Shown in pieces: positions 1,730-19,053 of a DNA stretch of 23,588 bases (the stretch's first letter is position 1; every line of letters begins with the position of its first letter). The stretch is from a virus: positions 2,001 to 25,588 of the IMG/VR virus record IMGVR_UViG_3300038825_000502; one strand, written 5' to 3'. The position numbers and the translations under genes were made by a program. The notes under the pieces are model-generated. The model was given only the letters and a program-made list of their open reading frames with translations. It was not told the origin of the DNA and searched no databases.

Positions 1730-4700
1730 TTATTGGATAGTGCCTAGACTCATCATTGGTCTGAAGCCACTAACAGGTTTTACTTCTTTTCCTGCTCTCA
1801 TATCCAATAAATATTTCTTTGCCTGTTGGACAAATTCTTTTTCGTTGGGGTATTTTTGTCTTAAGGCTTTACCAAACTCATTATTATTTAAATCTATCTC
1901 TGCTTCTTGTTGAGCTTCACCTGTTGGTAGAGTAAATCCTTTAGCGTTTCCTTGTGTGATAAATCCTTTAAGACCACCATATATCATGTTTACATAAGGA
2001 TTTTCTTTTAAGTTGTATACAGCAAATCCTAATTTTTCGTCTGCCATAAAACCACCACCTAAGATATGTCTTAGTGTATCTTCACTTTTATCATCATCCA
2101 TAAACTCATTTTCTCTTGCAAAATCGTAGGCAATTTCTTGAGCTTTTTCTCCTTGTTCTCTAACACCAAATACTCCTCCCACTTTCTTTTGAATAATTTG
2201 ATCAATGTTTGTTGTTCCATAATTTCTTTTAAGTGCATCATAGTCAATAAATCCTGAACTTATACCACCTTCTGCCATAGGTTCTCTATCTATTTGACCC
2301 GGACTAACATACATTTCATCTAAGTTTCTGGTAGACTTAGGTGCAGCTCTTTCTATTTGAGATAAAAATGCTTTTGTATCTTCATTGTTAATCATTATGT
2401 AATTAGACAATTCAAAAAGATCAGTTACATCTTGCAAACTAAAATTATTATGTATTCTATCAGTATCAAAATCAGCAGTTGTTACTTGCGAACTAAAAAA
2501 AGCTTTATTTGGTTTACCTTTCTTTTTGATTTCTATAAAGTCTTCTATGCCATTTTCATAGTTTTCAAATTTACCACCAAATAAAATACCTTGCTCTTTT
2601 GCAGTTTCATCTTTATTATACTGTATGAAAGCATCGTTAAAACGTTTTCTATCTTCATCATTAAAATAAGAATTATAAACTCTAGTTATTTCAGATAACA
2701 TAACAGTTTTTTTAGCAGTCTCCAATTTATCTTCTCGTTGTGCTAATCTTCGTTTAGCATCGGCTATATCTTCTTCATCAAATATGGAAAAACCTTGCTT
2801 TTTATCTTCCTCTATTTCAGCAAGTAGATAATCTAAATATTTATTCGCCTGACCTACATAGTATCTTTCACTTTGTGTTTTATCTTGAATTTCATTTTTG
2901 ATAAAGGCTGTGTTTACTACAGCTTGTATGTATCTGTGTTCGGCTCTACCTCTTTCTAATTTGTCAACTTTTCCAAATGATTTATTACCAAACGCATATA
3001 CATTCCAATCAAAATTAGGATCTTGTTCTAATAAATCTGCCCCTTTGTGCATAAGTTCATGTACCTCTGTATCTCCTGATAATCCGGGAGTTGTTATACC
3101 TGCCATTTGAAGATTTTTTCTCGCAACTGCAATTTTATTAAAATATGGAAAATAAACTCCTGCAGCTCCTCCTCCTATGCCCACAGTACCGTAATCAGAT
3201 AATTTTACAAAATCAGTTAAGGTTCTTCTATCTCTAAGACCTGCTAAAAGTAAGTCATTAAACCCTCTACCTTGTCGCCCTAAGTTGTCTCCAGTTTGAG
3301 TTAAATATTGAAATCCTGTTTCTGTATCACCAAACTTTACTCCACTTTTATATTCCTCTGTCATGGGTTTTGGGGGAAGAGGGGAGTCACTATATGTTTC
3401 TGTTTCCCCCTTATTAAAAGGAGTTATAGGATTATTTTTAAGCATTTCTCTAATGCTACTAGGAGCAGAAATTTTTGTAGGTCTACTCTTCTCAAGTTCT
3501 TCTTCTATTCTATACACACCTTTTTCTCGTTCACTATACGGAACAAGAGTTTTTCCAAGAACACTGTCTGCTTTGTCTCTTTCTTCTTTAGTGTAGTATG
3601 TTCCTTTAGGAACTGTTTTAGGTACGTATTGAGTATTACCACCCTCTTGCATACCTATGAAACCACCATCTGATGCCTGTCTAGCTTGTGGTTTTTCTTG
3701 TTTCTGTGACTCTTCTTGTCTACGTGCTACCTCTCGTTTACCACGATTATTTATTTTTTCTAGTCTGTCATATCCAATTACTTTAGCAATCTCTGGAGGT
3801 ACAATAACTTCTCCACGTGAAATCATTATGTCAACTTGTTCTTTGCTCGGTATCTTAGCAGCTTTGGCAGTCCTATCTATTCCAGCATCTGTATCTGCTT
3901 GAGCCACTATCTCGTAGGCTTCGACCAACATTTGTTTTATATCTTCTTTGCCTGCAAACTCTACAGCAGGTGCATTGATTACAAATGCTCCTTCAGGAAC
4001 TGTCTTAGGTATATCATCGGCTATAGTCTGTTGTTTAGTAAATTGATCAGGAGGACCTCCGACAAATCCCATCTCGCCAGTAGGTGTCTGTTGCTGTGCA
4101 GGGTCACCACCCATCTGCATACCTATCTTTCCACCATCACTAAATCCACTAAAATCATCATCAGTGTAGCCACCATAATTATCATCATTACTATCATTAT
4201 TATCGTCTGTGCTAAATGTACCTGTCGCACTGTACTGTGAACCTGCAGGAGCTGCACCAGTTGGATTACCAAAAGCATCGTAGGATGAATACCCTATACC
4301 TGCTTGAGCTGCTTGAGTTGCACTGCCATAATCATCTGCAGTTATACCTGCCTGCATCATTGCGGCTGGATTACCTTGCATGTATCCACTAATAGCATCC
4401 TCATCTTCTTGTAATTCTGCTTGTTTTATAGCTTCTTCAAAATCACTAATTGAACCACTTGGAACAGTCACGCCTGTCATTACTCTTCCACCAAATATTC
4501 CGGGTTCAATACTAACTAAATTTCCTTGATAATATCCTTGATTGTAGCCGGGTATCCCTTGTGCCATCTTATCTGCAACCTCATAGTGAGTGGACATCAC
4601 TGAACTAGCTACCGTGTTTAACATGCCACTTCCCATTGCCACATTCTGACCATAAGGATCTTGCATTGAAGGTCCTACTACTCCAGTAATTAATGATGTC

Positions 4701-5194
4701 GTAGGACTACCTAAAATATTTGACACTGAACCTAACGCTCTAGCTGCTTCAATATTACCTGTGTAAGCGGCAACTGCTGGAGCAAGATTGACTGCTGTCT
4801 GAGCTAAAGCACTGTCATAATATCCTGTTATTGCTGCTCCCACAGGGTCTGTTTCCATAAAACTTCTTTCGCCTGATGCTTTTTCCATACCAAAAGCAAT
4901 CTGTCCTGCTGTCTGTTGACTTCCTACTCCCGGCATTGCTGATGCAATGTTTATGTCTTCTTGTGCCTTTTCAATTGACCTCGAAACACCAACAGGTTCT
5001 ACTCCTATGCCAGAAGCTGAACTTACTCCACCTATATCTAACTTATCAGACTCTTGGTCACTTTCTGATTCCCTCTGTTCAGATATAGTGTCAACTTCAA
5101 TAGCTTCTTGTTTAAGAGCATTTTTAACGGCATTTTTTCGTCTTGCTCTTTTCATTAAGAAGTTTAGTTGAGGATTGTTAGTCTCAAATGCCAT
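1730..5194 (-). CDS. Large virion-associated protein with HExxH motif
   Basis: A 1154-aa protein between portal and scaffold, probably virion-associated or ejected; the role is inferred from position and size. Residues 1-320 are Gly/Ala/Ser-rich. Residues 328-353 are an Asp/Asn-rich acidic tract. Glycine-rich 'GGKIGMQMGGD' (near 354) and 'GGFIGMQEGG' (near 510) are each followed by 'PKTVPxG', an internal duplication. Between them lies a conserved-looking 'EVIVPPEIAKVIGYDRLEKI'. HELMH at 712-716 fits a zinc metallopeptidase, preceded by 'GLSGDTEV', with possible further ligands in 'RAEHRY'. The C-terminal part from about 973 contains 'SEDTLRHILGGG'. The start has no good ribosome-binding site and overlaps the end of the 76-aa gene by 11 nt, suggesting translational coupling. 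Confidence 0.7.
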   Translation of the reverse strand: MAFETNNPQLNFLMKRARRKNAVKNALKQEAIEVDTISEQRESESDQESDKLDIGGVSSASGIGVEPVGVSRSIEKAQEDINIASAMPGVGSQQTAGQIAFGMEKASGERSFMETDPVGAAITGYYDSALAQTAVNLAPAVAAYTGNIEAARALGSVSNILGSPTTSLITGVVGPSMQDPYGQNVAMGSGMLNTVASSVMSTHYEVADKMAQGIPGYNQGYYQGNLVSIEPGIFGGRVMTGVTVPSGSISDFEEAIKQAELQEDEDAISGYMQGNPAAMMQAGITADDYGSATQAAQAGIGYSSYDAFGNPTGAAPAGSQYSATGTFSTDDNNDSNDDNYGGYTDDDFSGFSDGGKIGMQMGGDPAQQQTPTGEMGFVGGPPDQFTKQQTIADDIPKTVPEGAFVINAPAVEFAGKEDIKQMLVEAYEIVAQADTDAGIDRTAKAAKIPSKEQVDIMISRGEVIVPPEIAKVIGYDRLEKINNRGKREVARRQEESQKQEKPQARQASDGGFIGMQEGGNTQYVPKTVPKGTYYTKEERDKADSVLGKTLVPYSEREKGVYRIEEELEKSRPTKISAPSSIREMLKNNPITPFNKGETETYSDSPLPPKPMTEEYKSGVKFGDTETGFQYLTQTGDNLGRQGRGFNDLLLAGLRDRRTLTDFVKLSDYGTVGIGGGAAGVYFPYFNKIAVARKNLQMAGITTPGLSGDTEVHELMHKGADLLEQDPNFDWNVYAFGNKSFGKVDKLERGRAEHRYIQAVVNTAFIKNEIQDKTQSERYYVGQANKYLDYLLAEIEEDKKQGFSIFDEEDIADAKRRLAQREDKLETAKKTVMLSEITRVYNSYFNDEDRKRFNDAFIQYNKDETAKEQGILFGGKFENYENGIEDFIEIKKKGKPNKAFFSSQVTTADFDTDRIHNNFSLQDVTDLFELSNYIMINNEDTKAFLSQIERAAPKSTRNLDEMYVSPGQIDREPMAEGGISSGFIDYDALKRNYGTTNIDQIIQKKVGGVFGVREQGEKAQEIAYDFARENEFMDDDKSEDTLRHILGGGFMADEKLGFAVYNLKENPYVNMIYGGLKGFITQGNAKGFTLPTGEAQQEAEIDLNNNEFGKALRQKYPNEKEFVQQAKKYLLDMRAGKEVKPVSGFRPMMSLGTIQ

Positions 5195-5414
5195 TATTAG
5201 TTTTGACTTTCTCTACATTATTCTTCAAATTGAGGAGTGTTTCCAGTAAAACCAGTTTCCCCTGCAGTTGGCGTAGCTCCGACTCCGATTGTGCCATCGC
5301 CAGACCCTTGACCGTTAGTTCCTTTAGGTTGAGGAGGTAATCCTCCAGACCCTGCCATATCTGTTGATTGTTGACTAGGGGGGCCACCTTCGCCGCCTGT
5401 TCCTTGTTGAGCAT
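5184..5414 (-). CDS. Small helical protein overprinted on the portal gene end
   Basis: A 76-aa gene in a different frame from the portal, overlapping its last 197 nt. It begins MLNKEQAAKVAPLVNNQQIW and contains 'SELRQLQGKLVLLETLLNL'. A compact helical protein with an 'LQG..xxLxxLLxL' pattern resembles small proteins I associate with genes next to phage portals; this is recognition of a pattern, not a search result. AAGGA lies about 10 nt before the ATG. Its stop overlaps the start of the 1154-aa gene by 11 nt, and that gene lacks its own clear ribosome-binding site, which argues that this frame is translated. The portal frame here is low-complexity Gly/Gln/Pro, which tolerates overprinting. 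Function unknown. Confidence 0.65.
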   Translation of the reverse strand: MLNKEQAAKVAPLVNNQQIWQGLEDYLLNLKELTVKGLAMAQSESELRQLQGKLVLLETLLNLKNNVEKVKTNNGI

Positions 5415-7353
5415 CTTGTTGCATTCCTTTCAATATCTCTGCGTAAATCTGTGCTTCGTTTACATCATTAACTAAACTATCTGGATCAATGTCTTGTGAT
5501 ATAGCTAACTCTCTCATTAAGTTTGGTATCTTAACAAATGGTGCGAGGGTAGGATTCATAACTGTTTGCAACAATGCTGTTAATCTTTGACTTCTTACTT
5601 CTTTCTGCATCACTGCAGCTACCCCACGAGGTTTAATTTCCAAGTCGCCTTCTATGTCTTCTGCACTATCATTAAACTGCATGTTCCATTGAAAGTAGGC
5701 TTCTCCCATAGGTTTAAGTAGATAATCATCTATATTCTTTATCACTGTCTTCATAGACAAACCTGCAGAACCCATCAACATTGATAGTCCTGACGCTGTA
5801 CGACCTGTGCCTGTTACACCAGTTTGTCCGTGCATGATTGATGGTATACCTGTTTCTTCATCTGCAAGTTGACGAGATATTTGGTACATCTGTATATTCT
5901 CGCCTGCTGTATTTGGAAACTTAAGACCGTTGATTGCAGTTCCTGTTACACCTGACTGTCTTCTAAATATTTTTCCGGGAAAAATATCCATGTTCTGTCC
6001 GGGAACTAAACTTGCTTCATCCACATCAAACACAAGATTACCTGCGAGTGCTAAATTATCAATAGCCATTCTTACATGACCATTCATAAGCATCTGTGCA
6101 TCTTCCATGTTTTCTGCTACACCAACACCCCACATTTGATATGGGTTGACTTCATATGGAAATACTTGATAAGGTATCCTTGATGGTGTAAACGGATTAA
6201 GAACACATCTAAGTATAATTGTGCCACACACCCATATATTCACAGGTATTTGATCTAAGTCTGAAATACCTGTAGGTAATTCTAATCCTGCTTCATCGGC
6301 AAACTTAGCATCTATTACACCCCAATACTCAAGAACTTCAAATCTGTTCTCTTGATAATATGGCTCAGTTTCATCTTCACGAATAGTGTCTTCGTAATAC
6401 TTGTCTTCGTAGTTAGGACCTTTTGCAAGACACTCTTCTATGGCTTCCATATCAAAGTGAGGTCGCTGTGAAAGACCACGAAGTTGTTGTCTATTCATAC
6501 GATGTCTTTGTATCACATACTCACAGTCGTCTATACTTGTAGCTGCTGGATCAGGATGAAAATCCCATACGGATACAGATTCTATTCTTGGCACTGCTTT
6601 TTCGTAAGGCATGTACTGTCTGTTGCCACTGTCATCTCTTTGCCACTTATGTACTTTCTTGTTAAAGTTGAAAGGTCCTTTAACTATTCCTGTACCAAGA
6701 AGAGATGCTTCAAATATAGCGTGACGAAAAACATTGACTGCATTACTATCAAGTAACTGATCATGTATCATCTGTTCCATCTTACGTGCAGCTTCACCTG
6801 ACGGACTTATCTGAGGTTCTCCTACTTTCGCAGGTCCTTCAACAAGTGGTGCATTTGCAAATTTATTTGCCATACCCCCCAAGAAATCCATAGTTGGAGT
6901 TGCTCGTGTTGCTCCCGGAGCTAATTCCATACCATCACCTGCATAACCATATTGGTCTTGTGGTGGTGGCGATACTTGATCTGCAGGAGTTTCTAAGTGG
7001 GCAAACTTTGCTATACCCTCTGGAACAGGTGTATCTTCTACAACAATAGGAAATTTTTTGTTGGCAAATAATATATCAACAATTTGTCCATATGCTGCAA
7101 GAACTTTAGTTTTAGTTATTCTGACAAATACTCTTGATCTTTCAGAATCACGGTATTGTGTAGTAGAATCATAAATGCCACGAAAGTTTTTATAGGCTTG
7201 TAGCCATCTATGTTCATGGGAACGCCTACCGTTTTCAGAGTCTTCAAACCTACTCTTTACATACCCTGCAAGTCCGGGCATAATCTCTGCCGCATTGGAC
7301 ATAGAAATAGGAGAATCAGACTCTTCATCTGAGTTTAAAAAGTTATCAGCCAT
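5218..7353 (-). CDS. Portal protein
   Basis: A 711-aa protein, the size of a podovirus portal, which forms the dodecameric DNA gate at one capsid vertex and docks the terminase. It sits downstream of TerL and upstream of scaffold and capsid. The N-terminal region has 'RRSHEHRWLQAYKNFRGIYD' and 'RSRVFVRITKTKVLAAYGQI', typical of head-tail connector proteins. The middle has 'YEVNPYQMWGVGVAENMEDA' and 'RMAIDNLALAGN', which match the portal pattern of a 'P.Y..P.G.G..E...D.Q...N...R..ID'-like block. The last 70 residues are low complexity (Gly/Gln/Pro/Thr) and overlap another gene. ATG at 7353 is preceded by AGGA at 8-nt spacing. No enzymatic motif is expected or seen. Confidence 0.88.
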   Translation of the reverse strand: MADNFLNSDEESDSPISMSNAAEIMPGLAGYVKSRFEDSENGRRSHEHRWLQAYKNFRGIYDSTTQYRDSERSRVFVRITKTKVLAAYGQIVDILFANKKFPIVVEDTPVPEGIAKFAHLETPADQVSPPPQDQYGYAGDGMELAPGATRATPTMDFLGGMANKFANAPLVEGPAKVGEPQISPSGEAARKMEQMIHDQLLDSNAVNVFRHAIFEASLLGTGIVKGPFNFNKKVHKWQRDDSGNRQYMPYEKAVPRIESVSVWDFHPDPAATSIDDCEYVIQRHRMNRQQLRGLSQRPHFDMEAIEECLAKGPNYEDKYYEDTIREDETEPYYQENRFEVLEYWGVIDAKFADEAGLELPTGISDLDQIPVNIWVCGTIILRCVLNPFTPSRIPYQVFPYEVNPYQMWGVGVAENMEDAQMLMNGHVRMAIDNLALAGNLVFDVDEASLVPGQNMDIFPGKIFRRQSGVTGTAINGLKFPNTAGENIQMYQISRQLADEETGIPSIMHGQTGVTGTGRTASGLSMLMGSAGLSMKTVIKNIDDYLLKPMGEAYFQWNMQFNDSAEDIEGDLEIKPRGVAAVMQKEVRSQRLTALLQTVMNPTLAPFVKIPNLMRELAISQDIDPDSLVNDVNEAQIYAEILKGMQQDAQQGTGGEGGPPSQQSTDMAGSGGLPPQPKGTNGQGSGDGTIGVGATPTAGETGFTGNTPQFEE

Positions 7354-7362: not shown

Positions 7363-7590
7363 CTAGCTAAAGTAGTTTTTGTCGTCTGCCATTGCAAAAA
7401 GAGAAGCTTCAACAGTCGGCTTTGACTGCTTCTTTGGCATGGCTACCTGTAACTCATTGTTACCAGTGTTAGTCATATCAAAGTCCATTCCTTCTCTATT
7501 TAATTGATTTGATCCCATTGGGTCATCAACTGAAGTTTTGTCACTGCCCATTATGTATGCAGCACCAAAGTTATAATTTTTGTCTGGCAT
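7363..7590 (-). CDS. Small protein between recombinase-like gene and portal
   Basis: A 75-aa protein of unknown function beginning MPDKNYNFGAAYIMGSDKTS. It is polar, with many Asn, Asp and Met residues, and has no membrane segment, Cys pair or coiled coil. The start is well supported: AGGAG lies 7-8 nt upstream of the ATG at 7590. It ends 9 nt before the portal start and follows the 668-aa gene by 17 nt, so it is part of the packaging/capsid operon. Small head-associated proteins are common at this place in podoviruses, but nothing in the sequence identifies one. Confidence 0.65.
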   Translation of the reverse strand: MPDKNYNFGAAYIMGSDKTSVDDPMGSNQLNREGMDFDMTNTGNNELQVAMPKKQSKPTVEASLFAMADDKNYFS

Positions 7591-7607: not shown

Positions 7608-9614
7608 TTATATGTTAGGACCAAATGGTCTTGTTGAACCATCAGGCATTGTTACTGTTCCACTATCAATAGGTATTCTTAGTGGATCAGGAACATCTTT
7701 ACGTAGTAGATCACTCATTTGCTGATCCATTGCGTAATTCATTGGACTAGTCGTAGCCATGTCTTGTTTAGAAGTTTCTAATCCCATAGATGTCATGTTT
7801 GCATATTCATCTTCGGATACGGTTCTATATTCTCCTCCTGCTTCCATGTCTGATCCTTGACCTGCAGGACTTGATTGTAATGAAAAATCTGTAGCTATTT
7901 TTAGTGGGTTCATTCCTGTGACTACATCAACAGCTAAATCTCTTGCTGTTTCTGCACCTGCACCTAATCCTGCACCAATATCACTGTACCCACGTTGTTT
8001 ATACTTTAGAAAATCTGCTCTAGCTTCACTGATTATACCAGCAGCAGTAGTACCTACTATAAGAGTTTTAAGACCTTTTGTTAAATCTTTCCACTCTTCT
8101 GAACTAAATACTTCGCCCAAATCAATGCCACCTTTTGCTGATTTTTTAGGTGCAGATTTTAATCCTGCTGCGATATCTGCTTCTAGTTGAGCTTTCTTTT
8201 GAGCAGCCTTACCTTCTGCTATCTTTTTTGTTACTGCTGGTTCTTGGTCTGCAACTTCTAAAGCTTTCTTTTGAACTATAGCTTCTTGTTCAAGTATTTG
8301 TTTGTCGTATTCTAATTCTTCTAATCGTGATTTTTTTTGTTTTGTTGCTGATATTTGATTTGCAGTTGCTATTTCTTGTTTAGTTCGTCTTTGTTTTTTA
8401 GGTATTACGTTTGTATCTGAACTATACAAGAAAGGTTCTTTGTTAGCAGGGTACGTGAAATCGCCATTAAATTCAGGAACGCTTACTCCTCTTTGTGTAA
8501 AGAGATCATTGACTGATGTTCCAGTGTTAAAAGCATCATTACGAATGATGTTATTTATGAGGGGTCCAATTCGCTTGTCTGATACAACACCTGCATATGC
8601 TTTTGCAGAAAGACGAGAAGATGCTTCATCTTGTCCTCCTGCGTGACCTATCCAAGAGTCAACTAAATTTGTATCAACCTCAAATTCATCTTCTAAGATT
8701 CTTGCTAATATCTTTCTGATAACTTTAGGTGTAGCTTTTTCTCCTTGTGGTAATTGTGTAGGAAATCTAGCTTCAAGTTCAGGTCTAAAATAATGATTCC
8801 AAACTCCATTTACTTTATCAGGAGTGGTGTTGAAAAGATCAACTGTTTTTAAATCTGCTCCTTTTGCTCTTGCTACTGCTTTAGTGTGCAAGTGTTTTAA
8901 AAATAATGCAAACTCACCTTCGTATTTTATTCTCGGTCTAAATTTTGTAGCAGTCTTTTTCTCTGCTATTTCAACAATCACACTGCCATCTGGTCTATTA
9001 GTAACTGTAACATCAGATATTTTAATTCCATCTTTTCCGATATTACTTTCTAATCTTTGTCCAGTAGCTTTTTCATATACCATGTAATCTTTGGTATCTT
9101 GACTTATAAAAACTCTTTTGGGTGCGTTTGTTTTTTTGTCAATTGCTGGTTCGCCATCTTTATTTAGTACAGGATAACTATCATTTTGTAAATGTCTGTG
9201 GTACATTTCATCTAAATCCGTTGAGTATATAGTACCTCTCATCGGCTTTAATGTTCTGTCTTGTACTCCTGCACCTTCTTTTGTTTTAGCTGCAATTCCA
9301 GTGCTTCTTGATAGTAGTTTGTAATCTTTATCTTTAAAAGTTTCAGTTCTAAGTAATCCTTTTTGTAATCCTGACTCAAAACTACTAAAATCTCTAAATC
9401 TGTTTACTGGACCTTGAACAGAATTTATAAACTCCTCTGTTTGATAAACTTCAAAGTATGGTTTATCCATAGAGAATGGTAAGTTTCTTCTTAACTTTCC
9501 TGCTTTATCTTTTTGACCTTTGCTTGATCCGGGATTGTTTTCAACAAACTCAAAAGCTTCACCAACAGTTAGTGTGCCGTCATCTACTTTTTCTATAAAT
9601 AATTCTAAATCCAT
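7608..9614 (-). CDS. Tyrosine-recombinase-like protein with coiled-coil and hydrophobic tail
   Basis: A 668-aa protein between TerL and portal. Residues 175-345 read like the catalytic domain of tyrosine recombinases: 'ATGQRLESNIGKDGIKISDV' supplies the first Arg (R187); 'EIAEKKTATKFRPRIKY' looks like the beta-hairpin with its Lys (about K224); 'TPKVIRKILARIL' supplies the second Arg (R300, with Lys where His is usual); 'SWIGHAGG' supplies the GH motif (H324); and Y340 in 'SAKAY' is a candidate nucleophile. The N-terminal 130 residues could be an arm/core-binding region. Residues 410-490 are charged and helical, followed by a hydrophobic segment at 515-530 and a Met/Ser-rich tail. Such tails are unusual for integrases and suggest a virion-linked role. 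The alignment is by eye. The start lies 3 nt after the TerL stop. Alternative: an unrelated internal virion protein. Confidence 0.6.
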   Translation of the reverse strand: MDLELFIEKVDDGTLTVGEAFEFVENNPGSSKGQKDKAGKLRRNLPFSMDKPYFEVYQTEEFINSVQGPVNRFRDFSSFESGLQKGLLRTETFKDKDYKLLSRSTGIAAKTKEGAGVQDRTLKPMRGTIYSTDLDEMYHRHLQNDSYPVLNKDGEPAIDKKTNAPKRVFISQDTKDYMVYEKATGQRLESNIGKDGIKISDVTVTNRPDGSVIVEIAEKKTATKFRPRIKYEGEFALFLKHLHTKAVARAKGADLKTVDLFNTTPDKVNGVWNHYFRPELEARFPTQLPQGEKATPKVIRKILARILEDEFEVDTNLVDSWIGHAGGQDEASSRLSAKAYAGVVSDKRIGPLINNIIRNDAFNTGTSVNDLFTQRGVSVPEFNGDFTYPANKEPFLYSSDTNVIPKKQRRTKQEIATANQISATKQKKSRLEELEYDKQILEQEAIVQKKALEVADQEPAVTKKIAEGKAAQKKAQLEADIAAGLKSAPKKSAKGGIDLGEVFSSEEWKDLTKGLKTLIVGTTAAGIISEARADFLKYKQRGYSDIGAGLGAGAETARDLAVDVVTGMNPLKIATDFSLQSSPAGQGSDMEAGGEYRTVSEDEYANMTSMGLETSKQDMATTSPMNYAMDQQMSDLLRKDVPDPLRIPIDSGTVTMPDGSTRPFGPNI

Positions 9615-9617: not shown

Positions 9618-11309
9618 TCAGTATCCAAATGTTTCATTTTGTACTTGATAGACCTGAGCCTTAATACCATTAAGCGTTTGATGAATTGCTGCATATCCTG
9701 TCATTCTTGTCATTAGCATATATCTCAGAGCATCGTATGCGTGATCTTCTGCCTTAGTATCTACGTCTTCGCTATTAGTTTTGGAAAGAGGAATTGCTGC
9801 CAATTGCTTGATAGTGTTGCTACAATTAGAAAACACTCGTAGTCTCGGTTCGTTTGTTCTCGGATCATCTGCAAGCCTACGATGTATTTCCATCTTACCT
9901 TGTATTCTGTTACGATCAGATGGAATCCAACGAACACCACATCTCATCATTGTTTCTGCTATGGAAGGACCAAAACCTGTTTTATTCCAACAGGAAGAGT
10001 CTAATACTGTATAGTGGGGTAGAGGGTCAAGTTGCTCTGCTTCTAGTATTTTATCAGCTAATTGTTCTGCTGTCAACTGTTTTACGTATAATTCACGATA
10101 AATCCAGATATTGTTATCCCAATCAATAGCACCCCATAAAACGCAAGAAGGACTCGCATACCCATAGTCAGCCGCCCTGATACGGGGCCAATTGGTTGGT
10201 AATTCGAAGCTTTCCACAACATGTTTTGCCCTATTAAATTCTGGGAAAGCTGCACCATCGGCTACATCCCAATCCCCATCAAGTAATCTTTTCCGTTCTA
10301 TCTCTGGTAGTGAACGAAGCATAGCTTCATATTGTCCATCTGCCATGAGGAACGGATTGTCTGTCAATCTCGCAGGAATGAACCTACGATAGAACAGAGG
10401 TTGACCTTCCTTTTCGTGTCCTTGCGGCCACATGAATGGTTTACCTGTTTCGACATCTGCTGCAGGAAACGGTTTATTGTGTTCTCCTACATCGATGTAC
10501 ATCTTTTTAATCCACCACCCTCCGATTCCTCCGGGGTTAGCAGTACACCTCATATACAAACTTTGTTGTAGTTCTGGATCTGTGCTTCTTAGTCTTGATC
10601 TTAGATAATCCCACACGTAAGGTGTTGGATATTGGGTTATCTCGTCTATACCTATCCAGTTGAAAGCTTGTCCTTGAAATCGAGTTACATCTTTGTCTTT
10701 GTCTAGATAAGTGAACCAGATTGTTGCTCCAGATGGAAAATGCCACGTTGACTTTGACTCTCTAAATTTTGCACCGGGAAACGCTTTGGGGTACAGTTGG
10801 CGTGATTTGTCAATAAGTTCTGTTAGCTCATCCAGAGTACGCCTAAGAAGAAGCCCACGATGATTGCTATTAGTGCAATACCGAAGGGGGTCTGCGAGAA
10901 GTGCAAAACTTTTTCCCCCACCTGCCGCACCTCCATAGAGGACATCTCTTTCACTAGCCGATAGAAACTCTTCTTGAGGTCCTTCATTCGGTTGAAACAC
11001 CACTTCACGATTTCCAACGATTTCTTGTACAGGTGGAGGAAGGCTAGATAAATCCCCTGCATCGACAATGGTAGTTGCATCCCCCTTAAGAGCTTTCTCA
11101 ACCTTACCAACTTTCTCTTCAAGCTTTCTGGCATATCTTCTTTTACTTTCTGCTACCTTAGTTATTTTATCTGCACGCTTTTTTGCGTCACGTAATCTCT
11201 TCTGTGTCTGTCGTCTAGCTTGTTCGGCTCTGGACAGAAAATATCTTTGCTTCGGTGCGTTAGGGTCTTTCTTTGGGCGACCACGCTTCGGTGTGGTGGC
11301 TTCAGTCAA
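9618..11309 (-). CDS. terL: Terminase large subunit
   Basis: A 563-aa packaging motor and headful or site-specific nuclease. The ATPase part has Walker A GGAAGGGKS (126-134) and Walker B 'FNWIGIDE' (D222, E223). The RNase H-like nuclease part has Asp in 'RIRAADYGY' (D381), 'YTVLDSS' (D437) and 'KAEDHAYDALRY' (D522), the usual three acidic residues. Residues 7-20 read PKRGRPKKDPNAPK, an AT-hook-like core (RGRP) followed by a basic, coiled-coil-like helix to about residue 75 that many terminases lack. The start is TTG at 11309, overlapping the preceding gene by 8 nt; an in-frame stop lies just upstream and no ATG is available, so start confidence is moderate. Confidence 0.95.
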   Translation of the reverse strand: MTEATTPKRGRPKKDPNAPKQRYFLSRAEQARRQTQKRLRDAKKRADKITKVAESKRRYARKLEEKVGKVEKALKGDATTIVDAGDLSSLPPPVQEIVGNREVVFQPNEGPQEEFLSASERDVLYGGAAGGGKSFALLADPLRYCTNSNHRGLLLRRTLDELTELIDKSRQLYPKAFPGAKFRESKSTWHFPSGATIWFTYLDKDKDVTRFQGQAFNWIGIDEITQYPTPYVWDYLRSRLRSTDPELQQSLYMRCTANPGGIGGWWIKKMYIDVGEHNKPFPAADVETGKPFMWPQGHEKEGQPLFYRRFIPARLTDNPFLMADGQYEAMLRSLPEIERKRLLDGDWDVADGAAFPEFNRAKHVVESFELPTNWPRIRAADYGYASPSCVLWGAIDWDNNIWIYRELYVKQLTAEQLADKILEAEQLDPLPHYTVLDSSCWNKTGFGPSIAETMMRCGVRWIPSDRNRIQGKMEIHRRLADDPRTNEPRLRVFSNCSNTIKQLAAIPLSKTNSEDVDTKAEDHAYDALRYMLMTRMTGYAAIHQTLNGIKAQVYQVQNETFGY

Positions 11310-12226: not shown

Positions 12227-12407
12227 AACGGTATGCTCTTGCTTCCATATCAGGCTTATACACAGGTAAATCCCTTTGAATTTCGTATACTCGTGCTAAA
12301 CACTGATCATGTGTCATGTATGGACCTCTTATATCTGCTAATTGGTTACAATATTCGTCTGATATTGGTTTTCCTATTAAGCATACGAGTACAAATGCTT
12401 CATACAT
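12189..12407 (-). CDS. Small four-cysteine protein, first gene of late operon
   Basis: A 72-aa protein. I chose ATG at 12407 over a TTG at 12470 because AGGA lies 9 nt upstream and the first residues then form a neat hydrophobic start, MYEAFVLVCLIGKPI. Cysteines occur at positions 9, 21, 35 and 61 ('EYCNQLADIRGPYMTHDQCL', 'AYRCDKF'). An N-terminal hydrophobic stretch with spaced cysteines suggests export or a disulfide-containing small protein, though there is no clear signal-peptide cleavage site. It is the first gene behind the strong promoter at 12537-12509 and overlaps TerS. Function unknown. Confidence 0.65.
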   Translation of the reverse strand: MYEAFVLVCLIGKPISDEYCNQLADIRGPYMTHDQCLARVYEIQRDLPVYKPDMEARAYRCDKFTPKNKEFT

Positions 12408-12508
12408 GGTTAAAATTCCTGTTAGATTGTACCAAGAACCGTTCAGCTTGAGCCAAAGCACGAGATTCAATGTGGTTGCTGCTGCTCGAAACTGGTCTTG
12501 ATACAGAA

Positions 12509-12537
12509 ATTATACGGATATAATACAAATATGTCAA
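12509..12537 (-). promoter_or_regulatory. Consensus sigma70 promoter of the packaging/capsid operon
   Basis: On the minus strand, TTGACA (12537-12532), a 17-nt spacer, and TATAAT (12514-12509) form a perfect consensus promoter. Transcription would start near 12502 and give a leader of about 95 nt before the first gene at 12407. This is the only strong promoter seen ahead of the left-hand minus-strand genes. Confidence 0.85.
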
Positions 12538-12564
12538 ATAAAAAAATTTTTAGGCACAAATGTC

Positions 12565-12592
12565 TTGACTTTTTCGGTATGATGGATATAAT
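12565..12592 (+). promoter_or_regulatory. Rightward sigma70 promoter with no clear gene behind it
   Basis: TTGACT (12565-12570), a 16-nt spacer and a perfect TATAAT (12587-12592). It is back to back with the leftward promoter; the two -35 boxes are 27 nt apart. No plus-strand gene with a good ribosome-binding site follows before the oppositely directed gene that ends at 13050. Confidence 0.75.
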
Positions 12593-12685
12593 CGGAGTAA
12601 CACCTCCGGGGAAATACACCTATACACACAGGGTATCCTAAAAGGATGCAAATAGACTGTACAAGTAACTCATTTACATAAAAAT

Positions 12686-12784
12686 ATGGCGACTTTGCTA
12701 ACGTATACGTGGGGGGCCCCCATGACCCTTAGCACCCCTATTTTCGCAAAATTTATCTTTGATCAATACCATAGGATAATATAA
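12686..12784 (+). CDS. Doubtful 32-aa open frame over the palindromes
   Basis: ATG to TAA encodes a peptide starting MATLLTYTWGAPMTLSTPIF. It lies behind the rightward promoter, but no Shine-Dalgarno sequence precedes it, and its unusual GC-rich codons (TGG GGG GCC CCC) are dictated by the palindrome. It could be chance. Conservation of the reading frame in related phages would decide. Confidence 0.2.
   Translation: MATLLTYTWGAPMTLSTPIFAKFIFDQYHRII
12701..12722. repeat. Two abutting palindromes in AT-rich DNA
   Basis: ACGTATACGT (12701-12710) is a perfect 10-bp palindrome. It is immediately followed by G6C5 (12711-12721); TGGGGGGCCCCCA (12710-12722) is a 13-nt palindrome about one central base. 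Such a GC block is exceptional in this AT-rich window. It lies in the noncoding region 300 nt from the start of the operon that encodes the small and large terminase. It may be a protein-binding, origin or packaging site. Confidence 0.6.
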
Positions 12785-12996
12785 CACCCAACTAGGCAAA
12801 GTTAGTTTTCATCTGTGTTGGCTCGGTCTTTTCTCGTCATGTGTATCTCTTTTTAACTTGGATGATATTTTTTAGTTGTACAATGTAAGCCTAAAAGGTG
12901 TTTACTGCTCGTTATATTGCGAATGAATACCCAAACGCCATAACAAGCGAATACATAACAATAACAATCAATTACATATATATTAAGCCTTAAAGT

Positions 12997-13030
12997 AAAA
13001 AACCCCATAGAAACTAATCTATGAGGTTTT
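12997..13030 (-). terminator. Rho-independent terminator of the minus-strand early cluster
   Basis: The arms 12999-13011 and 13018-13030 pair over 13 bp with one G-U and a 6-nt loop. On the minus strand the GGGG side is followed by six T (13002-12997). It lies 20 nt after the stop of the last gene of the 13050-18969 cluster. On the plus strand the stem ends in TTTT, so it may also stop the orphan rightward transcript, less efficiently. Confidence 0.82.
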
Positions 13031-13049
13031 CAGGGGAAGAAAGTTTAAG

Positions 13050-13382
13050 TTATTTATTTAGTCTTACACAACCATAAACACCACGATTAATTTTATCTTG
13101 TGTCGTTTTGGTGTCTTCATTCAAGAATAACTTTCTATACCTTGAAGTAGTATTTGAGTAATTCCAATTATCATAATCTAAATATGTTTCGCCATCAGCT
13201 TTAACACATATTATTGAATTATAACTTTGAAATACTTCTATGCCATTCTGCAAAGTAATAACATATTGATTTGCTACTTCTTTATTACTTCTAGGTGAAC
13301 GCATGTTTTCAACCTTAGCAATATTAAGAAGTTTCTTTTCTCTGTGTGGCATGTTTTCCAAACTTAAATTAAATGTTTGCAT
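13050..13382 (-). CDS. Small phage protein of unknown function
   Basis: A 110-aa protein beginning MQTFNLSLENMPHREKKLL. It has a beta-rich middle ('NQYVITLQNGIEVFQSYNSI', 'ICVKADGETYLDYDNWNYS') and ends 'NTTSRYRKLFLNEDT...GVYGCVRLNK'. The 'W.YS.TT.RYR..FL' stretch looks like a conserved block that I have seen in other phage hypotheticals, but I cannot name a family. AAGGA lies 8 nt before the ATG. The start overlaps the upstream gene by 14 nt and the gene is last before the terminator. A small accessory role in host takeover is a guess from context. Confidence 0.62.
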   Translation of the reverse strand: MQTFNLSLENMPHREKKLLNIAKVENMRSPRSNKEVANQYVITLQNGIEVFQSYNSIICVKADGETYLDYDNWNYSNTTSRYRKLFLNEDTKTTQDKINRGVYGCVRLNK

Positions 13383-13566
13383 TGTTAGTTCCTTTCTGAA
13401 TTATAATTTGATTGCCTTTAAGTTTCTTCTGTTTGGTAGCACAACTATCACAAATAACACTTTCATAATCTTGTAGCTCTCCCTCTAATACTTCCAAAGG
13501 CATTTTAAAAGTATCTCCAAAGATTTCTTTATATTTGCAAATAGTACATTTAAAAAAGTAAGCCAT
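13369..13566 (-). CDS. Small zinc-ribbon-like protein
   Basis: A 65-aa protein. I chose ATG at 13566 (MAYFFKCTICKYKEIFGDTF) over an in-frame start at 13590, because AAAGG lies about 8 nt upstream and it starts one base after the preceding stop. Two Cys pairs, CTIC near the N-terminus and CDSC near residue 40, are spaced as in a zinc ribbon. The C-terminal part is Lys-rich (TKQKKLKGNQ). It may bind nucleic acid or a host protein; the family is not recognised. Confidence 0.62.
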   Translation of the reverse strand: MAYFFKCTICKYKEIFGDTFKMPLEVLEGELQDYESVICDSCATKQKKLKGNQIIIQKGTNNANI

Positions 13567-13567
13567 T

Positions 13568-13915
13568 TTAATTACCTTTCTTATTTTCAATTAAGTCTTC
13601 TAAGTCTAATTGACCGTGTAAACCCCATTGAACACCAATATTTTCATTGAAGTAAAACCTATCTTTCTTGCAAGGTTCTAAATCGTCTTCATATTGTACT
13701 TGCTCGTTAATTGTATTTAAAATGTTTATTGTTTGGTCTTTATGACAGTACAACAAGTGCTTTATTGTTTCTCTGTCTTTCTCAAAACCGATTATTTCCA
13801 AACAAGCGAAACTGTCGTAAATCTTCCAACGCATTTCAACCTTACAAGGTTTAGAAATAATTTCTTTTTGGTTCTCGTCATATTCATGTCTAATTAAGTA
13901 TGTTTCTGTTTTCAT
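13568..13915 (-). CDS. Small protein of unknown function behind an internal promoter
   Basis: A 115-aa protein beginning MKTETYLIRHEYDENQKEII. It has alternating beta-like segments ('CKVEMRWKIYDSFACLEIIG'), a helical 'DRETIKHLLYC', and ends 'GQLDLEDLIENKKGN'. AAGGAAG precedes the ATG by about 9 nt. It is the first gene after the promoter at 14016-13987 and the hairpin at 13984-13957, so it may be expressed separately from the genes to its right. No domain is recognised. Confidence 0.6.
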   Translation of the reverse strand: MKTETYLIRHEYDENQKEIISKPCKVEMRWKIYDSFACLEIIGFEKDRETIKHLLYCHKDQTINILNTINEQVQYEDDLEPCKKDRFYFNENIGVQWGLHGQLDLEDLIENKKGN

Positions 13916-13950
13916 TTTTGAACTTCCTTTTCTACTTAAATTAAGGTTTT

Positions 13951-13984
13951 AAAAAAAACCACCCAAGCGATTACTTGAGTGGTT
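13951..13984 (-). terminator. Intrinsic terminator at a sub-operon boundary
   Basis: AACCACCCAAG (13957-13967) pairs with CTTGAGTGGTT (13974-13984), 11 bp with one G-U and a 6-nt loop. On the minus strand it is followed by eight T (13958-13951). It lies after the winged-helix-like gene. The promoter just upstream would start transcription inside its first arm, so it may also serve as a 5' hairpin of the next transcript. Confidence 0.75.
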
Positions 13985-13986
13985 CA

Positions 13987-14016
13987 ATTATAGTCTTAGA
14001 TTTTTTTTAATGTCAA
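13987..14016 (-). promoter_or_regulatory. Internal consensus promoter overlapping a stop codon
   Basis: On the minus strand, TTGACA (14016-14011), an 18-nt A-rich spacer and TATAAT (13992-13987). The -35 box includes the TGA stop of the preceding gene. Expected start is near 13980. It would express the three genes 13915, 13566 and 13382, if RNA polymerase passes the hairpin and T8 run just downstream. Confidence 0.68.
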
Positions 14017-14480
14017 CTAGTTAATTTATTAACCAAGTTTCTATCCATCGTATTAAAATTTAAAGGATAAGCTTTATATAATTTGTAATGTTTACCTTTA
14101 ACATTAACAGATTGAATATAACCTTTCTGCTTTAAACAATGTACATATTGCCTAACAGTATATATTGACATTTTTATATCTGTTGATGCGTATACATCAA
14201 TAACTTTGATATAATCATTCTTCCTGATTACCTGATATATACTAAACTCTCCTTTAGTCATTGGTTGATTACCTTTGATTAAAGTAGGATTATTTTTGTT
14301 TTCTTTATTAGTAATAATACTATCTAAAGTAGGTACAAAAACATCAAATTGATCTGCTAATTGTTTGGCAAGTTCGTGGCATCTATGCCCTGATCTATGA
14401 CCTTTATTCTTAGCATTCTTAGATACAATTTCCAATGTTTCAAGCAATGTTGACATTTTAGTTAGATGTTGTCTTCTCAT
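14013..14480 (-). CDS. Possible winged-helix DNA-binding protein
   Basis: A 155-aa protein. I chose the ATG at 14480 (MRRQHLTKMSTLLETLEIVS) because GGAGG lies 7 nt upstream and it forms an ATGA overlap with the preceding stop. The N-terminal part is helical and basic ('KNAKNKGHRSGHRCHELAKQ'). The C-terminal 80 residues read like a winged helix: 'MTKGEFSIYQVIRKNDYIKV', 'SIYTVRQYVHCLKQKGYIQS' (recognition-helix-like), and 'VNVKGKHYKLYKAY' (wing). It may repress or modulate phage or host promoters; the terminator and new promoter directly behind it suit autogenous control. The assignment is structural inference by eye. Confidence 0.6.
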   Translation of the reverse strand: MRRQHLTKMSTLLETLEIVSKNAKNKGHRSGHRCHELAKQLADQFDVFVPTLDSIITNKENKNNPTLIKGNQPMTKGEFSIYQVIRKNDYIKVIDVYASTDIKMSIYTVRQYVHCLKQKGYIQSVNVKGKHYKLYKAYPLNFNTMDRNLVNKLTS

Positions 14481-14698
14481 TGTTTTTCCTCCCATTGTGC
14501 AATTCTGATACTAGCCATTCTTTCAGCAAGTACGATTTGGTTACAAGGATCACAACAATACCCATTATGGATAGGTTCAGCATTATTACCACCATACCAA
14601 TAAACAGTATTACCATCTTTATCATTGCCTAAAAACTTAGGTTCAATATCTTTTTTACAGATACAACATTCAATGATTTTTGATTTATCAATAGACAT
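14477..14698 (-). CDS. Small zinc-binding protein
   Basis: A 73-aa protein with two Cys clusters: 'ECCICKKDIEP' near the N-terminus and 'GYCCDPCNQIV' near residue 48, as in a zinc ribbon. Between them is 'YWYGGNNAEPIHNG', a block I associate with small conserved phage proteins of unknown function. AGGAG lies 7 nt before the ATG at 14698. It follows the 25-aa membrane peptide and overlaps the next gene by 4 nt. It probably binds zinc; the partner or target is unknown. Confidence 0.68.
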   Translation of the reverse strand: MSIDKSKIIECCICKKDIEPKFLGNDKDGNTVYWYGGNNAEPIHNGYCCDPCNQIVLAERMASIRIAQWEEKQ

Positions 14699-14709
14699 AT
14701 TTTCTCCTA

Positions 14710-14787
14710 TTAAAATATTAAAGCCAAAATAATGATCACCAATAAGATGACCATTATACGAGATACGTTTGCTAGAAATTCACCCAT
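14710..14787 (-). CDS. Tiny single-span membrane peptide (25 aa)
   Basis: An ATG at 14787 shares a base with the TAA of the DUF932-like gene (TAATG), then a 25-codon frame ends 12 nt before the next gene. The peptide has a short polar start (MGEFLANVSR) and a purely aliphatic segment (IMVILLVIIILALIF), a textbook single transmembrane helix. The gap between the flanking genes is exactly filled by this frame. It has no separate ribosome-binding site, so translation would depend on termination of the gene before it. Role unknown; holin-like or membrane-anchoring roles are possible. Confidence 0.55.
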   Translation of the reverse strand: MGEFLANVSRIMVILLVIIILALIF

Positions 14788-15803
14788 TAAGCGTTAGCCA
14801 TTTCTAAATTTTGCCATGCGTCTGATGTCAATAATTCTCTGACTACATCTGCTCTCTGTCTTTCTACATTTGGTTTGTTAGCATTAGTTCTGCCACCATT
14901 GATAGTTTCAACTTTGAGAGTTTCAGGATTAAATCTTTCTACCTTATGATCAGTATGCGTTGACCAATGTGTAAGAGCATTATAACAACCCCAAAGAGTA
15001 GAACCTAATTCCTTTTTCTCTTCATCAAATAAACCAAGCAAGTAATTTAGCTTAGTTTCATTTACAGGATTAACACCAACTTCAGCAGATTTGGTTTTCT
15101 TAAGACAGATAGTTTGTTTTAACATATCAGCAAATTGTTGATCTGTTACTTGTATCTTTCTCCAATTTAACATCAAATCTTTTTGATGATGCCACATAGA
15201 TAAACCTAAGCCTGATTTTTGGATCATTGCAGATGGCGACAAATTTAACGTATGTTTCTTCTTTTGATGATAAGATTTTTCTCCACCAAACACCAAAGTA
15301 TTTCTACATAAGTTTCTATATGCTCCTGAGAAAACTTGGAACGCCCAAGAAGTATCAACAGAATTAAATACATCTATTCTAGCCTTAACAATATCTTTTG
15401 AATTTGAAACAGGAATAGAAAGATCATCATAATAGATAGTTCTTTGAGCTTGTAAGCCACCGTTGATAAGCTTATCTACAACTCTAATATTCTGCTTAGG
15501 TAAATCTGTTTTATCTAGAATATCAGCTTGTAAAGAAAACAAATCTTGATGAGGTACAAGTTTGTAAGTATCTGCTATTGGTCTAGATTGTAAAACCTGA
15601 CCTAAACTTTCATTGTACAAACCTGAATATCTTTCAAGCTTAACTTGATTACCAATTCCATTTTCATCTTCATCATAAGCAAATAGATCTATTCTTTTTA
15701 TCTTTGCATTATCTGAAAATAATGAAACATCAAAAGGATTGTTGTGTTCGTGAATTGTATTTGATTTCAAGTTTGTTTCTTGATTTGTTATTATGCTATC
15801 CAT
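14787..15803 (-). CDS. DUF932-like protein
   Basis: A 338-aa soluble protein that resembles the DUF932 / phage-plasmid-like family by its core: 'KARIDVFNSVDTSWAFQVFS' followed by 'GAYRNLCRNTLVFGGEKSYH' and a downstream 'HTLNLS'. The N-terminal part contains 'SRPIADTYKLVPHQDLFSLQ', also expected before the core. The C-terminal part has 'GSTLWGCYNALTHWSTHTD'. Molecular function of the family is not established; members are common in phages and plasmids near replication or regulatory genes. ATG at 15803 has only a weak AAGAG upstream; the preceding 80-nt gap folds into two small hairpins. Confidence 0.75.
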   Translation of the reverse strand: MDSIITNQETNLKSNTIHEHNNPFDVSLFSDNAKIKRIDLFAYDEDENGIGNQVKLERYSGLYNESLGQVLQSRPIADTYKLVPHQDLFSLQADILDKTDLPKQNIRVVDKLINGGLQAQRTIYYDDLSIPVSNSKDIVKARIDVFNSVDTSWAFQVFSGAYRNLCRNTLVFGGEKSYHQKKKHTLNLSPSAMIQKSGLGLSMWHHQKDLMLNWRKIQVTDQQFADMLKQTICLKKTKSAEVGVNPVNETKLNYLLGLFDEEKKELGSTLWGCYNALTHWSTHTDHKVERFNPETLKVETINGGRTNANKPNVERQRADVVRELLTSDAWQNLEMANA

Positions 15804-15883
15804 AATTTTTTCTCTTTCTAGGCTAAAAGCCTTTTGGTTACGCTACCTGAATTAGTAGCTAATTTATTTCTAAACTATCTAGA
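15804..15883 (-). other. Intergenic leader with two hairpins
   Basis: The gap before the DUF932-like gene contains GCTAC/GTAGC arms (15842-15846 with 15855-15859) and AGGCT/AGCCT arms with a 3-nt loop (15820-15824 with 15828-15832). No T-run follows on the minus strand, so these are not terminators for this operon. They could tune translation of the downstream gene, whose ribosome-binding site is weak. Confidence 0.4.
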
Positions 15884-16276
15884 TTAAATAGCAAGAAATT
15901 CTTTTTTATTTTTTATCTGCCTTTGTTTCTTTCTTAGAAATTCAAAATCAACTTTTTCTAAACCTTTAGCAGAAATGTTTTTAGGAACATTTATAACTAC
16001 AGGAGTGAACTTAAACTTGGTATCATTTGAAGATAGAGTTGACATTTTTTTACCATCAACTGTAATATCGCCACGAGTTTCTATCCAAACCTTAGCACCA
16101 CAACTAAGTGGTTTATCAGGCGAGTAGACTAACTCCATCTCGCCATTGACCTTGACATTATGTGCATAGATATTCTTGCCACCTTGTTTGATTGTAAAGA
16201 CAGGATTGTTTTCGCCATTCTTTGCATTGGCTTTGATTACATGTTGGTTCACATGGATACGAGCAATCTTATTCAT
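15884..16276 (-). CDS. Conserved-looking phage protein of unknown function
   Basis: A 130-aa protein, largely beta-rich, beginning MNKIARIHVNQHVIKANAKN. It contains 'PVFTIKQGGKNIYAHNVKV', 'ELVYSPDKPLSCGAKVWIET' and a basic C-terminus (RKKQRQIKNKKEFLAI). The start 'IHVNQHVIKAN' and 'PDKPLSCGA.VW' block look familiar from other marine phage hypotheticals, but I know no function. AGGAG lies 7 nt before the ATG, which shares one base with the stop of the preceding zinc-ribbon gene (TAATG). Confidence 0.65.
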   Translation of the reverse strand: MNKIARIHVNQHVIKANAKNGENNPVFTIKQGGKNIYAHNVKVNGEMELVYSPDKPLSCGAKVWIETRGDITVDGKKMSTLSSNDTKFKFTPVVINVPKNISAKGLEKVDFEFLRKKQRQIKNKKEFLAI

Positions 16277-16428
16277 TATCTATCTCCTCTATCTTCAGGT
16301 AGATCATCTACGTTAACTAGATTATCTGAGCAACAAAATGGACAATCTTTTCCATCCTCAGTTTTCATTAGTTCATACTCATGTAAGACAGACTTACACC
16401 TAAAACATTGATAAATTTCACTCGGCAT
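16276..16428 (-). CDS. 50-aa zinc-ribbon protein
   Basis: A short gene of 50 codons. It begins MPSEIYQCFRCKSVLHEYEL and has a CxxC pair at 8/11 and a second near 29-33 in 'KDCPFCCSDN', a minimal zinc ribbon. GGAGG lies 6 nt before the ATG. The start overlaps the previous gene by 11 nt and the stop overlaps the next start by 1 nt, so it is locked into the operon. The acidic tail reads VNVDDLPEDRGDR. It may bind nucleic acid or protein; no family is named. Confidence 0.68.
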   Translation of the reverse strand: MPSEIYQCFRCKSVLHEYELMKTEDGKDCPFCCSDNLVNVDDLPEDRGDR

Positions 16429-16771
16429 TCCAAACCTCCAAAAGAGTTTCATCAATTAGATTAATTAACTCAAAACAAAATCGTCTAGTAGAACGAATTT
16501 CATTTTCATCTTTATGATGCTTTTTTAACTTATCTAAGACTTTAGTTAAAACTATCTCGCTTGGATAAACACCTGATCTAAGCTGATCTAGATAGAACTC
16601 TAATTGTTTTTCCTTGTTATGTAGCTCAAGTGCTTTCTCTTCAACTAGATTAACTTGACCATCATATTCGCTTTCAGCTTGTTGGATAGCATCTTCATCT
16701 GACATGCCCTTTTCCATAAGCTCATTTACTCTGTCTTCGATTTGACTTTCGTGGAAATGTTCTCTGCTCAT
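16418..16771 (-). CDS. Small acidic helical protein
   Basis: A 117-aa protein rich in Glu, Asp and Lys with no Cys pairs or membrane segment beyond a moderately hydrophobic C-terminus. It begins MSREHFHESQIEDRVNELME and has long helical stretches ('SDEDAIQQAESEYDGQVNLV', 'VLTKVLDKLKKHHKDENEI', 'FCFELINLIDETLLEVW'). AGGAG lies 7-8 nt before the ATG. A 52-nt gap separates it from the gene to its right. Small acidic phage proteins can inhibit host enzymes or mimic DNA, but nothing here shows that. Confidence 0.6.
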   Translation of the reverse strand: MSREHFHESQIEDRVNELMEKGMSDEDAIQQAESEYDGQVNLVEEKALELHNKEKQLEFYLDQLRSGVYPSEIVLTKVLDKLKKHHKDENEIRSTRRFCFELINLIDETLLEVWNAE

Positions 16772-16823
16772 TTCTTATCTCCTAAAATTAAAATGAAACA
16801 AACAATTACTACAGATAAACTAC

Positions 16824-17447
16824 CTAGTCAACATCTTTATTGATATCTAGATAAACTCTAAGACATTTGGATTTCTCGATTGGCTGACCATAACTATATC
16901 TTTTCCAACCCTCATTCTTCTTAGTTTCATCATTGAGATACTGACCACGAACCCTGAGTTTATAGCTGACATTATTCAAATATTCCCTCAATAGGCTGAC
17001 AAATTTTCTGCCGTTACTGTCGTTAGGTATCTCGCTAAACACATACCTATCTCCCTTGACGCTAGTGACGTTATTGTATGCTTTGTGCCAATAATCAAAT
17101 TTCCCTTTTAAGGATGATATTTTTTCATCCTTTTCTTTGAGTTGTTTTTCAAGGCGTTGACAATTATCCCACATGATATTGTAAACGTTTTTTGACACCA
17201 TATCCAATACGTGTTGGTTTAACTTATCTCTCTCCTTAATTAAGTCATCTCTTTCTTTAGTTAGACTATTTACCATGATCTCATTCTTCTCTAGATCATC
17301 TACACTTGCGATAAAGTTATCTTCTGCGAGTTTCTTCCACCTTGATTCCTCGCTACACATCTTGACAAAAGCATTTCTTACATATTGATCAGGCATGTTA
17401 GCTATGTCGATAAACTTGCCTTTACTTCTAGAATAATATTGTGTCAT
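16824..17447 (-). CDS. Coiled-coil protein of unknown function
   Basis: A 207-aa protein. The ATG at 17447 is preferred over the GTG one codon earlier because GGAG is 8 nt upstream; it shares one base with the previous stop (TGATG). Residues about 50-115 form a coiled-coil ('LTKERDDLIKERDKLNQHV', 'QRLEKQLKEKDEKISSLKG'). The C-terminal part is mixed and aromatic ('KFDYWHKAYNNVTSVKGDRY', 'RVRGQYLNDETKKNEGWKRY'). No catalytic motif is seen. A structural or partner-binding role is possible. Confidence 0.6.
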   Translation of the reverse strand: MTQYYSRSKGKFIDIANMPDQYVRNAFVKMCSEESRWKKLAEDNFIASVDDLEKNEIMVNSLTKERDDLIKERDKLNQHVLDMVSKNVYNIMWDNCQRLEKQLKEKDEKISSLKGKFDYWHKAYNNVTSVKGDRYVFSEIPNDSNGRKFVSLLREYLNNVSYKLRVRGQYLNDETKKNEGWKRYSYGQPIEKSKCLRVYLDINKDVD

Positions 17448-17776: not shown

Positions 17777-17808
17777 CACGATCTCTCCATAGTTTCGTAC
17801 ATTTTCTT

Positions 17809-18969: not shown

Positions 18970-19000
18970 ATCTTATCTCCTATATTTATGATCAGGGTTT

Positions 19001-19030: not shown

Positions 19031-19053
19031 ATTATTTTTTTTTATTTTTTTTC

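Follow-up and report, generated by a model that had tools for sequence, protein, structure and literature searches.

Gene order and phage group

The gene described here lies in the window, the whole stretch of 23,588 nucleotides that was analysed, at a locus with the order TerL - [recombinase] - orf75 - portal (Table 1). The preliminary description had placed it between TerL and portal, which holds directly on the TerL side, whereas towards the portal a 75-aa ORF (7363-7590) intervenes. Its GC content (35.4%) is below that of both TerL (43.1%) and portal (40.4%). The closest named relatives of TerL and portal are found in Pelagibacter phages HTVC033P/103P/115P, Roseobacter CRP phages and Puniceispirillum phage HMO-2011, and the primase of the window is likewise closest to that of HTVC033P. 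Thus, the window represents an HMO-2011-type marine podovirus, and the closest isolate to the contigs analysed here, HTVC033P, belongs to subgroup IX.

Table 1. Features of the locus and codons of the putative catalytic residues, in window coordinates.
Feature	Position	Strand	Remarks
Putative slot recombinase ORF, 668 aa	7608..9614	(-)	starts 3 nt past TerL stop; same slot in relatives
Predicted core-binding domain (N-terminal, helical), residues ~3-110	9285..9608	(-)	AF2 pLDDT mostly 70-93; whole-length alignments from residue 2-15
Predicted tyrosine-recombinase catalytic domain, residues ~121-345	8580..9254	(-)	invariant columns and best 50 PDB rows
Variable C-terminal part, residues 346-668 (~320 aa)	7611..8579	(-)	low-confidence predicted helices, no known family
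Conserved tail, right cassette edge, common to relatives with different core	7687..7836	(-)	89% nt identity to L085
TerL, left neighbour	9618..11309	(-)	phrog_979 terminase large subunit 7e-59
75-aa ORF between slot gene and portal	7363..7590	(-)	conserved; related to HTVC033P gp79, E 2e-6
Portal, right neighbour	5218..7353	(-)	SU10_portal 2.7e-30; 54% to Pelagibacter phage HTVC033P
R187	9054-9056	(-)
K224	8943-8945	(-)
K297xxR300	8724-8726 (K297), 8715-8717 (R300)	(-)
G323-H324	8643-8645 (H324)	(-)
Y340	8595-8597	(-)

Relatives were gathered from viral contigs and fall into very different core types. A TerL-anchored survey covered 77 contigs, 67 of which had enough sequence to judge the slot, and a long ORF occupies it in all 67, the complete ones measuring 545-756 aa and each possessing a long non-catalytic C-terminal part. 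A core-anchored search with the class that carries Arg at the GH position (Arg-class, see below) recovered the same slot in 29/29 loci examined. In other relatives the slot region holds unrelated genes, such as a FAD oxidoreductase (RHph_N3_19) or a GDSL-type hydrolase (phiM6), and 12 HMO-2011-type isolates have no gene there at all. Searching 50,697 phage records with five different slot proteins returned no described member, the window protein itself yielding one chance match among sequenced phage records (E 0.8), and open-access papers contained no description of such a recombinase in a TerL-portal slot. What sets these proteins apart is the joining of a tyrosine recombinase to a tail, a constant place between TerL and portal, and exchange as cassettes.

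Several further features of these genomes were observed. The 1154-aa protein encoded after the portal (window 1730-5194 (-)) contains HELMH, equivalent to the zinc-metalloprotease HExxH pattern, with no Pfam match; among relatives (L028, L029, L055), its counterparts have a mosaic make-up or are divided over two ORFs. The window also encodes a C5-cytosine DNA methyltransferase (17809-18969 (-), PF00145 1.9e-32) and, between a helicase and a polymerase/exonuclease-like ORF, a small ORF (21588-22019 (+)) with an HNH-like C..C..H..H arrangement, perhaps a homing endonuclease. One 56.8-kb contig (G009; L161-L163) has a 668-bp direct repeat of just 87% identity at its ends, which may be duplicated or misassembled, and a GC content of 51%, as compared to 36-39% in most of the clade.

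Catalytic residues and predicted fold

The interval 8580-9227, earlier proposed to encode an integrase-type catalytic core inside a packaging-module protein, corresponds exactly to residues 130-345 of ORF 7608-9614(-), and all catalytic residues named in that proposal are present and conserved in divergent relatives. In an alignment of 21 core sequences (A7), mostly just 22-45% identical to the window core, 15 columns are invariant (T16, E80, Q118, M125, G127, Y138, T184, R187, K224, R226, P289, R300, G323, H324 and Y340), and six of these, R187, K224, R300, G323, H324 and Y340, make up the catalytic set, in order along the sequence. These invariant catalytic columns rule out a chance resemblance to tyrosine recombinases. 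A separate alignment of 24 diverse class-1 cores retained R187, R300, H324 and Y340 in every sequence and K224 in 21/24. Another large class among the slot proteins, the Arg-class, maintains both arginines in 21/21 cores, has Arg replacing the GH histidine equally in 21/21, and presents a Tyr 9-17 residues after this Arg, again in all 21. Members with Arg at the GH position include L088, L089, L115, L122, L155 and relatives.

The activity of the window protein had been doubted on two grounds, of which neither weighs as much as supposed. At the position of the HxxR histidine the window has K297, and relatives have T, S, Y or K. This histidine is common in the tyrosine recombinase superfamily, yet dispensable: SSV1-type integrases follow R..KxxR..Y and pNOB8-type integrases R..YxxR..Y (PMC8371274), while RDLR occupies this place, in our sequence comparison, in the Roseobacter phage CRP-3 integrase, for which integration at a tRNA-Met gene has been reported (PMC6918029). 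As all three manage without that histidine, KxxR is not disabling. Similarly, a spacing of 16 residues from His to Tyr is covered by the Arg-type relatives, which range from +9 to +17.

Profile searches gave a divided picture, as the window protein has no match to PF00589, whereas several relatives in the same slot do. The window protein is without any Pfam or PHROGs profile match, even at E 1, neither it nor its type-A profile directly matched Pfam, PHROGs or NCBIfam, and neither gave a PDB sequence match worth noting. Among the relatives, L115 reaches PF00589 at 1e-6, above the curated cut-off, L122 (4.2e-6) and L134 (4.6e-6) lie at the cut-off, and weaker matches were obtained for L071 (3.8e-5), L086 (4.7e-5), L089 (4.8e-4), L095 (7e-4) and L056 (0.0019); several relatives also pass the curated cut-off in six-frame searches of whole records, and L055 matches the phrog_1 integrase at 7e-6. 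BLASTP links the window core to L107 (44%), L042 (31%), L055 (E 6e-9), L071 (E 8e-8) and also L056. The window recombinase is very divergent and is probably working.

Two AF2 models were exploited to shed light on the fold, one of the full protein and a second, with better alignment, of residues 1-400. The first is confident in the core only, and its best PDB alignments are with archaeal XerA (Z 12.0, 168 residues) and SSV1 integrase. For the second (mean pLDDT 81.4, pTM 0.69), the best 50 PDB rows from VIA-align are tyrosine recombinases or type IB topoisomerases without exception, and the best matches among predicted viral structures are phage integrases. Topoisomerases aligned with the catalytic domain alone, whereas recombinases aligned with both domains: Tn1549 Int at Z 10.7 over 264 residues (6-339 on 81-379), XerH and lambda Int each at Z 10.5, and Cre at Z 9.0. 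The predicted fold is consequently that of a tyrosine recombinase with a core-binding and a catalytic domain. The expected clustering of the catalytic residues is backed indirectly, the alignments ending at model residue 338-339, adjoining Y340 and opposite Cre 323-324, lambda Int 341-342 and Tn1549 378-379; on the other hand, the His-Tyr loop itself (324-343) has pLDDT <50. Congruent with the conservation and with the PF00589 matches of relatives, the models support the proposal of an integrase-type core at this locus.

The resemblance to characterised enzymes is confined to the core. Tn1549 integrase, XerH, lambda Int and Cre are the best full-length matches (Z 9-10.7) and have the same two domains, but identity is merely 9-14%, and they lack a tail of ~320 aa and a position between TerL and portal. 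SSV1-type archaeal integrases likewise have KxxR for HxxR (PMC8371274), and their catalytic domain aligns at Z 8-10; unlike the slot protein, however, they are small, belong to archaeal viruses, integrate at tRNA genes, and have neither a place in a packaging operon nor a long C-terminal part.

In the full-length AF2 model the C-terminal part (346-668) has pLDDT mostly <50, and the region previously described as a coiled coil is modelled as helices (412-485) of low confidence. The hydrophobic segment noted in the same description proved weak, with a best 19-residue Kyte-Doolittle mean of 1.09 in the window protein; a mean of 1.6 is reached by 0/67 slot proteins, the stretches being moderately hydrophobic at most. 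Given this weak hydrophobicity, a membrane segment or anchor is not supported. Comparison of the C-terminal part with the other ORFs of these phages gave no match, and a tail common to other virion proteins, which could have served as a packaging signal, was discarded as a candidate. At the opposite end of the protein, an extra N-terminal domain of ~130 residues precedes the core in L212:3593-5668, L223:3269-5338, L243:3584-5644 and L246:1995-4004.

Exchange of cores and C-terminal parts

Proteins flanking the slot are 74-97% identical among relatives, whereas the cores often lack BLASTP-detectable likeness. Clustering of 76 cores at 40% identity gave 22 clusters, and BLASTP joins the cores into two groups, of 49 and 27, although the TerL proteins flanking these 76 are about 80-97% identical. 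The window and L085 illustrate the pattern at the nucleotide level: TerL is 91% and portal 90.5% identical, and the slot gene is unalignable save for the last ~150 nt (89%). Unrelated cores with tails at least 50% identical were found in 19 pairs, and cores at least 60% identical with unrelated tails in another 19. These sequence comparisons indicate that cores and tails reassort, and that the whole core is replaced as a cassette between close relatives.

Within a type, dN/dS is 0.07-0.12 for the core, 0.25-0.48 for the C-terminal part and about 0.05 for TerL, values that point to strong purifying selection on the core. In the pair of the window and L002, the dS of the core (0.70) equals that of TerL (0.70). 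Considering this equality and the low dN/dS within a type, the diversity of the cores stems from cassette replacement and not from unusually fast mutation.

Candidate roles of the slot recombinase

Beyond the slot gene, neither a canonical integrase nor any other PF00589 member was detected in nine clade contigs of 38-57 kb (one of which, G012, was taken as complete, with an exact terminal repeat of 124 bp), and no serine recombinase was found. Known HMO-2011-type integrases are located upstream of the replication genes (PMC9038755); in the window, the ORFs upstream of the primase are all small. The canonical integrases of CRP-1/2/3 and HMO-2011 resemble the slot protein in being tyrosine recombinases of the same broad phage group, and also lack the HxxR histidine (RDLR in CRP-3, MDLR in HMO-2011 and CRP-2). 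They differ from it in length (about 290-357 aa), in lying upstream of the primase and, with respect to the window protein, in being readily matched by PF00589 (68 bits for CRP-2); profile-profile comparison with the slot core gave no significant similarity (hhalign probability 0.2%). Phages with such an integrase have an empty slot: in ten of these isolates the TerL and portal matches are separated by at most about 120 nt, leaving no room for the slot gene. Canonical integrase and slot recombinase were not seen together, a reciprocal distribution that is confounded by phylogeny.

Signs of lysogeny were sought by several routes. A tRNA T-arm motif, as expected of an attachment site, was absent from 11/12 slot-bearing records, a weak test that also missed two phages with a canonical integrase, and the window holds no tRNA genes. 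Pattern-limited searches of genome contigs recovered no prophages or bacterial relatives of the clade, only a TerL of 52% in a MAG, and the slot-bearing records had no match to the HTH_3 repressor. Four genomes contained no long inverted repeats of the kind that border invertible segments, and a dyad search of window 12400-19200 returned two weak palindromes. A large survey has described HMO-2011-type subgroups IV-X as being without identifiable lysogeny-related genes and possibly obligately lytic (PMC9038755); for subgroups near this clade it predicts hosts among Pelagibacter or Roseobacter.

On balance, the gene probably codes for a genuine tyrosine site-specific recombinase, most likely an active one; it is the only recognisable recombinase of the clade and is permanently placed in the late packaging operon. 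The maintained active site, the purifying selection and the cassette exchange together favour a functioning enzyme whose site specificity can be exchanged, and the slot protein is likely an active recombinase. Y340 would attack DNA to form a phosphotyrosine intermediate, helped by R187, K224, R300 and H324, with K297 possibly standing in for the HxxR histidine, and two DNA sites would be exchanged. The enzyme would act on DNA of the phage itself, and the site recognised would differ from one core type to another. Two readings would deprive the protein of this function. Structural reuse of the recombinase fold, as raised in the preliminary description, here in a structural or packaging protein that has lost catalysis, would fit the late operon, the missing HxxR histidine and the Arg for the GH histidine in one large branch; nonetheless, the nucleophile and both arginines are kept in 24/24 class-1 and 21/21 Arg-class cores, and with an invariant catalytic set such reuse is improbable. 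Even less credible is a type IB topoisomerase-like enzyme easing torsion during packaging or ejection: the catalytic set and fold class are the same, and the best structural matches include poxvirus and human topo IB, but the full two-domain alignments go to recombinases, relatives match PF00589, and cassette replacement would not be expected.

As to what an active recombinase would do, the absence of other integrases suggests that the slot enzyme takes over from the canonical one, and we rank integration and excision first, as possible though short of probable. The phages would then be temperate, with the slot enzyme standing in for the canonical integrase otherwise located upstream of the primase, and a swap of cassettes would shift the attachment site. 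The two enzymes were not seen together, the slot gene is the sole recombinase found and the exchange resembles the expected site switching, but the above searches revealed no attP, prophage or repressor, and an integrase would not be expected in a late operon. Instead, the gene's strictly constant place in the packaging operon points to late action or virion delivery. A recombinase made late, packaged with the genome via its C-terminal part, ejected into the next host, and acting at once on incoming or resident DNA would account for the late-operon position, for the confinement of the gene, in all loci observed, to the slot between TerL and portal, and for the long, reassorting C-terminal part of all complete slot proteins. 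A precedent for injection is gp44 of phage 80alpha, a virion-ejected DNA-binding protein that enters with the genome and acts on it (PMC7290940); gp44 is, however, not a recombinase, and its virion presence has been shown, whereas the slot protein is a candidate. Virion delivery is somewhat unlikely considering that the tail has no signal common to other phage proteins, that no clear membrane segment is present and that the 12 HMO-2011-type isolates manage without a gene in the slot. Circularisation or resolution of the phage genome is placed second among the roles, yet is rather doubtful; a Cre/Xer-like enzyme circularising terminally redundant DNA, or resolving concatemers at packaging, would suit the adjoining terminase in the late operon and the structural likeness to XerH, XerA and Cre, but housekeeping offers no obvious reason for repeated core replacement, and related isolates manage without the gene. 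Other virion-delivered actions rank third and are quite unlikely. As the arguments diverge, no attachment site or prophage was found and the distribution is confounded by phylogeny, our preferred reading of an active site-specific recombinase covers enzyme class and mechanism, and extends only weakly to integration/excision.

The dominant marine phages include those of HMO-2011 type, and the slot-bearing clade is abundant and uncultured. It is nearest to published subgroups reported to be without recognisable integrase, yet carries a recombinase that the usual profile searches miss; thus, conclusions about the lifestyle of this clade drawn from integrase searches call for re-examination. A bolder and fairly doubtful prospect is that a large, cassette-swapped recombinase family resides in the virions of abundant marine podoviruses and is ejected with the genome, so that site-specific recombination could start ahead of any phage gene expression. 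The findings raise a testable question, namely which DNA site each core recognises and when it acts, and the cassette diversity, with 22 clusters among 76 proteins, represents a candidate source of new site-specific recombinases.
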